Made by a program: the position numbers and the translations under genes. Below the pieces are notes generated by a model. The model had not been told where the DNA came from, made no database searches, and saw only the letters and a list, made by a program, of their open reading frames with translations. A DNA stretch of 64,000 nt from Actinomycetes bacterium (GTDB taxonomy: Bacteria; Actinomycetota; Acidimicrobiia; Acidimicrobiales; RAAP-2), in the NCBI GenBank assembly GCA_021846325.1, contig JAJZBX010000001.1, forward strand, positions 124,001-188,000, in the 5' to 3' direction. How positions within the stretch are numbered: the stretch's first letter is position 1; every line of letters begins with the position of its first letter. Shown piece after piece: positions 20,447 through 29,003 of the stretch.

Positions 20447-20546
20447 CCTCTCGTTTTGCGCACCACTTGTCCGGTCTAAGGGCCGAACCGGCATGGTGGA
20501 GCCAGTTCGGCTTATAGACCGGACGCCTGGTGCGCAAAACGAGAGG
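20447..20546. repeat. Large imperfect inverted repeat (42-nt arms, 16-nt loop)
   Basis: The left arm 20447-20488 and right arm 20505-20546 match at 36 of 42 positions when one is reverse-complemented, beginning CCTCTCGTTTTGCGCACCA and ending GCCGAAC. The 16-nt loop contains CATGGTGGAG. As RNA or single-stranded DNA it would form one long hairpin. The inner part is related to the sequence directly 3' of the tmRNA. Confidence 0.85.
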
Positions 20547-20652: not shown

Positions 20653-20688
20653 TTGCGCACCACCAACCGGTCTTAAAGCCGAACTGGA
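20653..20688. repeat. Third copy of the tmRNA-proximal repeat unit
   Basis: TTGCGCACCACCAACCGG and following bases repeat, with small gaps, the unit starting at 20457, and end exactly where the tmRNA gene 3' end (TGGTGGAG on this strand) begins. Same orientation as the left arm of the inverted repeat. Confidence 0.7.
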
Positions 20689-21036
20689 TGGTGGAGGTGC
20701 TGGGAATCGAACCCAGGTCCGTCAGCTTCGTAGTGAACATTCTCCGAGCGCAGCTCTTGAGGAATTGTCGAGGGACACACCGTCAAGAGCACCGGAGTGA
20801 GCCCGTAGCCAACTGAATTTTCCGGCGGAGTCGCTGGCGATTTCCGTCGGTAAGCCCTGCATTATGACGCCCATGATCTAAACCGCAAGGCGGGGTCTAG
20901 TTGGACGTTGCTAGTTACCTAGCAAGCGCAAGCTGAGGCTTGGCGTTTATTTTTGTTTCCGGCTCTTTTACGTGGTTCCGGAGACCACGGCTCGCTGCTT
21001 TCACCTTGACGACTGACGTCGAGACCAATCACCCCC
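20689..21036 (-). ncRNA. ssrA: Transfer-messenger RNA (tmRNA)
   Basis: The minus strand shows a 5' GGGGGTGATTGGTCTCGACG and a 3' tRNA-like end TTCGATTCCCAGCACCTCCACCA with encoded CCA; GGGGGUG pairs with CACCUCC (one G-U) as a 7-bp acceptor stem. Between them are a pseudoknot-like GTGGTCTCCGGAACCAC hairpin and the A-rich AACAAAAATAAAC leader before the resume codon. From GCC the tag reads AKPQLALAR then TAA, and the TAA sits in the loop of a TTGCTAG/CTAGCAA hairpin, as in helix H5 of known tmRNAs. smpB lies directly upstream on the same strand. Total 348 nt. tmRNA tags and rescues stalled ribosomes with SmpB. Confidence 0.93.
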
Positions 21037-28156: not shown

Positions 28157-28275
28157 GATGACTCCTATGAGTTGAGGTGAGCCCAACTCGATATGCCACG
28201 GTCGAATCGGTCTCCACCGCTAGGTGCGGTGAACGCTCGTGAGAGCCTAGCAGGATGGCGCGACCCTTCGAGCGG

Positions 28276-28355
28276 TGCGGGCGGAGGGACTCGAACCCAC
28301 ACTCCGAAGAACTGGTACCTAAAACCAGCGCGTCTGCCAATTCCGCCACGCCCGC
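28276..28355 (-). tRNA. tRNA-Leu (anticodon UAG)
   Basis: The minus strand folds into a tRNA: acceptor GCGGGCG/CGCCCGC, D-arm with AATTGGCAGAC, anticodon stem CTGGT/ACCAG with loop TTTAGGT (anticodon TAG), a long class II variable arm, and TTCGAGT T-loop. One U-U mismatch occurs in the T-stem. The 3' CCA is not encoded (ACCG follows). Confidence 0.93.
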
Positions 28356-28415: not shown

Positions 28416-29003
28416 ATGAAGAACTCCGCCATGGCCGAAGGGCTCGGAACGAATGACCTCAATCAGCGACTTCTGCGCGAGCGAATCGTCTTCCTCGGCT
28501 CCCAAGTGGACCAAAGCACGGCGAATCGGATCTGCGCTGAACTGTTGTTGCTCGAAGCCGAAGACCGAGATCGTGATATCAGCCTCTACATCAATTCCCC
28601 GGGGGGCTCGGTGACCGACGGGCTGGCCATTTACGACACGATGCAGTACGTCAACTGTGACATTCGGACGATCTGCGTGGGTATGGCCGCGTCGATGGGA
28701 CAGTTTCTCCTGTGCGCCGGAACGCCCGGTAAGCGGTTCTCGTTGCCCCACAGTCGAATTTTGATGCATCAGCCGTCAGCCGGTGGCATGCAGGGTCAGG
28801 CGTCGGACATTGCGATCCAGGCCGAGCAGATCGTGTACATGAAGAAGATGTTGGCCGAACGGATTTCGTTTCACACCGGTCAACCGGTGGAGCGAATCGA
28901 AGCGGACTCGGATCGGGACCGGTGGTTCACGGCACAGGAGGCGGTCGAGTACGGGTTCATCGACGCCGTCATCGATCGTTCGGTGACCCGACAAGGGGCC
29001 TAG
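28416..29003 (+). CDS. clpP: ATP-dependent Clp protease proteolytic subunit
   Basis: A 195-residue ClpP. The catalytic triad is visible: Ser93 in GMAASMGQF, His in [12 protein letters not shown], Asp in [37 protein letters not shown] is the family opening of the head domain. No Shine-Dalgarno precedes ATG 28416, and a transcript starting close to the ATG is possible. It lies away from clpX and tig, which is unlike the common clpP1-clpP2-clpX arrangement; a second clpP is likely elsewhere. Its stop overlaps the polysaccharide-exporter permease. Confidence 0.95.

Follow-up and report, generated by a model that had tools for sequence, protein, structure and literature searches.

A tmRNA tag ending in Ala-Arg in one Acidimicrobiales species, probably through a structure-preserving change in the H5 hairpin

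Results

An ordinary tmRNA gene beside smpB

The 64,000-nucleotide stretch of DNA analysed here (the window) carries a complete one-piece tmRNA gene (ssrA) with an intact smpB directly upstream, which provides the partner protein SmpB in the genome (Table 1). The tmRNA matches Rfam family RF00023 over model positions 1-374 with a score of 150.1 bits (E 4.9e-59), above the gathering score of 47, and ARAGORN calls a gene with identical ends and the tag AKPQLALAR*. As read from the sequence, the acceptor stem GGGGGUG/CACCUCC (GGGGGUG...CACCUCCACCA) contains an encoded CCA and a G3-U pair, the latter as expected for charging with alanine. In both sequence and structure the tmRNA is an ordinary one. 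The source is an uncultured actinobacterium represented by one MAG, in which the gene lies inside a long contig together with its own smpB. The window tmRNA is the only one found in this 2.28-Mb, 94% complete assembly, and the presence of a second, normal tmRNA was rejected on this ground. Elsewhere in the window, no copy of the tmRNA 3' end as an integration site was found. Just downstream of ssrA is a 46-nt inverted repeat (window 20447-20546, 20667-20689), the arms of which are 85% complementary and 8 nt apart. A third, 21-nt arm of this repeat abuts the tmRNA 3' end, and no near-exact copies of the repeat are present elsewhere in the assembly.

Table 1 Features of the window that bear on the tmRNA tag and its recognition
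Feature	Position	Strand	Evidence and remarks
One-piece tmRNA (ssrA)	20689..21036	-	Rfam RF00023, ARAGORN; encoded CCA, G3-U pair in acceptor stem
H5 hairpin TTGCTAG-GTAA-CTAGCAA	20908..20925	-	7/7 pairs; GNRA-type GUAA loop with UAA stop
Tag frame GCC AAG CCT CAG CTT GCG CTT GCT AGG TAA = AKPQLALAR*	20915..20944	-	Sequence, ARAGORN
Last sense codon AGG (Arg)	20918..20920	-	Congeners: GCT/GCC (Ala) in 79/83 distinct tmRNAs, AGT (Ser) in 3
smpB, intact, 171 aa	21242..21757	-	NF003843 196 bits (cut-off 130), TIGR00086 172.8 bits (cut-off 119.1)
clpP, one of two in genome (core as matched)	28449..28979	+	PF00574 264.7 bits, NF001368 283.7 bits

The tag is read from a GCC resume codon that follows ...AAATAAAC. 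The frame is secure because the identical GCC resume codon opens AKPQL... in dozens of congeners, and an alternative frame or resume codon was rejected since the register is common to all congeners. An unreadable AGG codon was likewise rejected, as the genome contains tRNA-Arg(CCU), the reader of AGG, in addition to tRNA-Arg(UCU). A previous reading of these letters alone (the sequence-only reading) had proposed the frame AKPQLALAR-stop from this GCC, a C-terminal Arg and a TAA in the loop of the H5 hairpin. All three proposals hold: the frame agrees with ARAGORN and the congener register, the Arg is encoded by the AGG of Table 1, and the TAA fills loop positions 2-4. The tag had also been described as short. 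It does have nine residues, but this length is no oddity, being the norm both in the genus (79 of 83 distinct tmRNAs) and in the order Acidimicrobiales (175 of 212). Across bacteria, the commonest tag length is ten residues (PMC11915505).

The Arg end is found in a single species

Few features of protein quality control in bacteria are as conserved as the final Ala of the ssrA tag. Tags were read from the genus, where 85 of 99 genomes yielded a tmRNA, and from a sample of the order Acidimicrobiales, for 212 distinct tmRNAs in total; the relatives identified by way of SmpB are MAGs that carry the label Acidimicrobiales or Acidimicrobiaceae. Across the order, the terminal Ala-Ala that defines the ClpXP ssrA degron (...LAA-COO-), and that the window tag lacks, is present in 207 of the 212 tags, with Ala-Ser in three, Ala-Val in one and Ala-Arg in one, that of the window. 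The 83 distinct tmRNAs of the genus comprise 79 ending in Ala-Ala, three in Ala-Ser and the one in Ala-Arg. In addition, 397 order genomes were searched by pattern for A?PQL...A-type tags with a last codon not beginning with G (A?PQL[AV..]?A-nonAla). This search returned the window genome alone, and no further Arg- or Ser-ended [KE]PQL tags were found in the 397 genomes. In the literature collection searched, no paper mentions 'ALAR' together with ssrA. Because all congeners bar three Ser-ended ones read GCT or GCC at the last codon, the Arg end seems, from these sequences, to be private to the species and no lineage trait. The sequence-only reading had suggested this comparison of related ssrA genes at the last codon and would have counted GCx in relatives against its interpretation. 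Most relatives do read GCx at this codon, so the change is one of a single species. The genus tmRNAs with the tag AKPQLALAA share with the window the smpB-ssrA order, the frame, the first eight residues and the H5 shape. Relative to these, the window tmRNA has AGG for GCT/GCC, TAA for TAG and two re-formed stem pairs.

Several other tmRNAs of the sample are worth recording. The Ala-Val-ended tag is AEPQLALAV, from a tmRNA of the same order (L220, genome G397). Seven congeners without a strong tmRNA match were re-searched: six have tRNA-sized matches only, whereas N interrupts the tmRNA of the seventh (G046), whose tag, AKPQLAFAA, is still readable. One congener (G092; 3 contigs, 96% complete) has no tmRNA match above tRNA level, owing to loss or to an assembly gap. 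Finally, G032, G037 and G321 each have two tmRNA matches over the cut-off, for which a duplication, an island-borne copy or a mixed bin is possible.

The change preserves the H5 hairpin

The genus consensus for the H5 hairpin is TTGCTGC-TTAG-GTAGCAA, from which the window hairpin differs at five of 18 bases, three of them in the stem. A G-U pair is replaced by A-U and a C-G pair by G-C, all seven pairs are kept, and the loop changes from UUAG to GUAA. With its flanks, the window hairpin has a predicted energy of -11.7 kcal/mol, unchanged relative to the -11.4 kcal/mol of the consensus. For the three changed stem positions, 4 of the 27 possible outcomes preserve all pairs. Since a five-base change inside H5 keeps all seven pairs, an assembly error is unlikely, and these sequences indicate that the Ala to Arg change is probably genuine. 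The stem TTGCTAG furthermore occurs in an independent assembly, that of congener G084 (L134, tag GNAQFALAS). Its hairpin, TTGCTAG-TTAA-CTAGCAA, is one loop base away from that of the window (AGT, Ser, versus AGG, Arg). This base, the third of AGG, is unpaired in the loop, and a U there would give ALAS. The pairing argument does not bear on the choice between Ser and Arg, for which the base comes from a single assembly.

The three Ser-ended congeners, G084 (GNAQFALAS), G086 and G075 (GNPVFAVAS), resemble the window in their stem, TTGCTAG/CTAGCA(A or C). In contrast to the window, their last residue is Ser, their resume codon is GGC (Gly) and their tag body is different. Phylogenetic placement was taken from quick trees based on short alignments. 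In the SmpB tree, the window joins a clade with the tags ANSTAHVVVAA and ATTNRAFAVAA (98% SH-aLRT, about 85% identity), not the Ser-tag clade. In the tmRNA tree, from which the tag region was removed, the window groups with the ANSTAHVVVAA/ATTNRAFAVAA clade, G097 (GKAQLSLAA) and the Ser-tag clade (89%). This tmRNA clade has unusually varied tag ends (VVVAA, AVAA, SLAA, ALAS and AVAS). The TTGCTAG stem common to the window and the Ser-tag clade could reflect either common descent or two separate origins, and Ser (AGT) is a plausible stepping stone to Arg (AGG). A shared Ser stage is unproven because the SmpB tree puts the window beside the ANSTAHVVVAA/ATTNRAFAVAA clade. The H5 hairpin offers a concrete route for the joint evolution of an RNA fold and the tag that it encodes, with the Ser-ended congener as a possible intermediate. 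In the ClpX of the three Ser-ended congeners (tmRNAs L134, L125 and L127), the motif just before the RKH loop is VANVPPQ, not VASVPPQ.

The Ala-Ala contact residues of ClpX are conserved

ClpX of E. coli recognizes the last Ala of the degron through Thr199 and Val202, which contact its side chain, and through Val154 and again Thr199, which hold its carboxylate. The degron end is further contacted by Tyr153, Arg228 and His230, and substitution of either terminal Ala raises the KM (PMC7652416). The contacts made with the last Ala agree with the earlier expectation that an Arg end would weaken recognition by ClpX. The single ClpX of the window genome (L195, G000:C36) keeps Y153, V154, T199, V202, R228 and H230 (E. 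coli numbering), and congeners do likewise. Divergent ClpX loops matched to Arg were considered and rejected, as the six contact residues are unchanged. The suggestion that adaptor or protease specificity differs in this lineage is therefore not upheld, with 6/6 ClpX contacts kept and Ala-Ala at the tag end in 79 of 83 distinct congeneric tmRNAs. A natural Arg end beside a standard ClpX and SmpB provides a clean natural test of whether selection maintains tag degradation or rescue. In genome G056, clpX (G056:C11:218528-219717) is split over two adjoining frames (L207 and L208), by a frameshift or an assembly error.

In addition to ClpX, the window genome encodes two ClpP, a full ClpC and a proteasome-type subunit. 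The second clpP, which lies in the window, is adjoined on the opposite strand by tRNA-Leu(UAG) (window 28274-28355). For other proteases, few last residues are favoured less by Yersinia Lon than Arg (PMC11986505), and in a Mycoplasma pneumoniae reporter, expression is raised by a C-terminal Lys and to a lesser extent by Arg (PMC7246954). From the ClpX contacts and these Lon and reporter data, we infer that, most likely, rescue is normal and tagged proteins are degraded less efficiently. The E. coli and Yersinia protease rules on which this expectation is based may fail to carry over to Acidimicrobiales.

Discussion

A working tmRNA whose tag, in one species, exchanged an Ala-Ala end for Ala-Arg, through a structure-preserving change in H5 that left rescue normal and degradation weaker, is the likely explanation of the locus. 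The H5 hairpin would have been altered at five bases with its pairing re-formed, and AGG could plausibly have been reached by way of Ser (AGU, the codon found in congener G084). Ribosome rescue would proceed as usual, with nascent chains receiving Ala-AKPQLALAR. By analogy with the characterized proteases, ClpXP would be expected to degrade these Arg-ended chains more slowly than chains bearing the Ala-Ala tag, and residual turnover could come from the kept ...LALA core, ClpC or other proteases. Rescue is usually a more critical function of tmRNA than tag degradation, so the Arg change would be tolerable; it is probably near-neutral or mildly beneficial. A stronger proposition is unlikely, namely that rescue and ClpXP proteolysis have become uncoupled in a free-living bacterium whose ClpXP is intact, or that its tag has been redirected to another protease, by an Ala to Arg change through a compensated change in H5.

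It is improbable that the Arg end reflects relaxed selection and an early decay of tag function, in which rescue is kept and the degradation signal drifts. Such a decay would fit a private change and has a precedent in Carsonella, which combines a Lys-ended tag with a SmpB that has lost parts (PMC4131195), but the AKPQLALA remainder of the window tag is identical to the commonest congeneric tag, H5, the acceptor end and smpB are intact, and drift should have cost the tag more than the final residue. In a 2014 survey of 710 tags, a charged last residue (Lys) was unique to Carsonella (PMC4131195). The tag of Carsonella ruddii and that of the window share a positively charged last residue (Lys there, Arg here), and the window tag is thereby a lead to a second case of a charged tag end. 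The settings differ: the endosymbiont Carsonella has a genome of 157-174 kb and its SmpB is truncated, whereas the window genome measures 2.3 Mb and encodes SmpB and ClpXP in intact form.

Little probability is also given to an adaptive rewiring, by which tagged proteins would be sent to another protease or adaptor (e.g. ClpC, Lon or an Arg C-degron reader) and no longer to ClpX. The presence of ClpC and proteasome genes and the unusual variety of tags in the tmRNA clade around the window would be consistent with this, as would the precedent of Mollicutes, in which Lon degrades tags ending in NYAFA (Gur and Sauer 2008, cited through PMC7246954). The window tag and Mollicutes tags share a non-LAA end. 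However, Mollicutes tags are long and Ala-ended, and M. pneumoniae is without ClpXP (PMC7246954), whereas the window tag has nine residues and the charged end LALAR in a genome with ClpX and two ClpP. The rewiring is further opposed by the retention of ClpXP with all Ala-Ala contacts, by the Ala-Ala end retained in close relatives, by the low preference of Lon for an Arg end in the case tested, and by the lack of a candidate new adaptor among the other genes of the neighbourhood.

A sequencing or binning error, with Ala as the true last residue, or Ser if one loop base is wrong, is highly improbable. The source is a single MAG and AGG and AGT are one unpaired base apart, but a false Ala-to-Arg change needs five base errors that by chance restore two stem pairs, the tmRNA is interior to a long contig and beside its own smpB, and the window smpB and tmRNA both place within the genus in the trees. 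An error of the short-read consensus that falls on the deciding base itself could occur but is improbable, and the G at this position also yields a GNRA loop.
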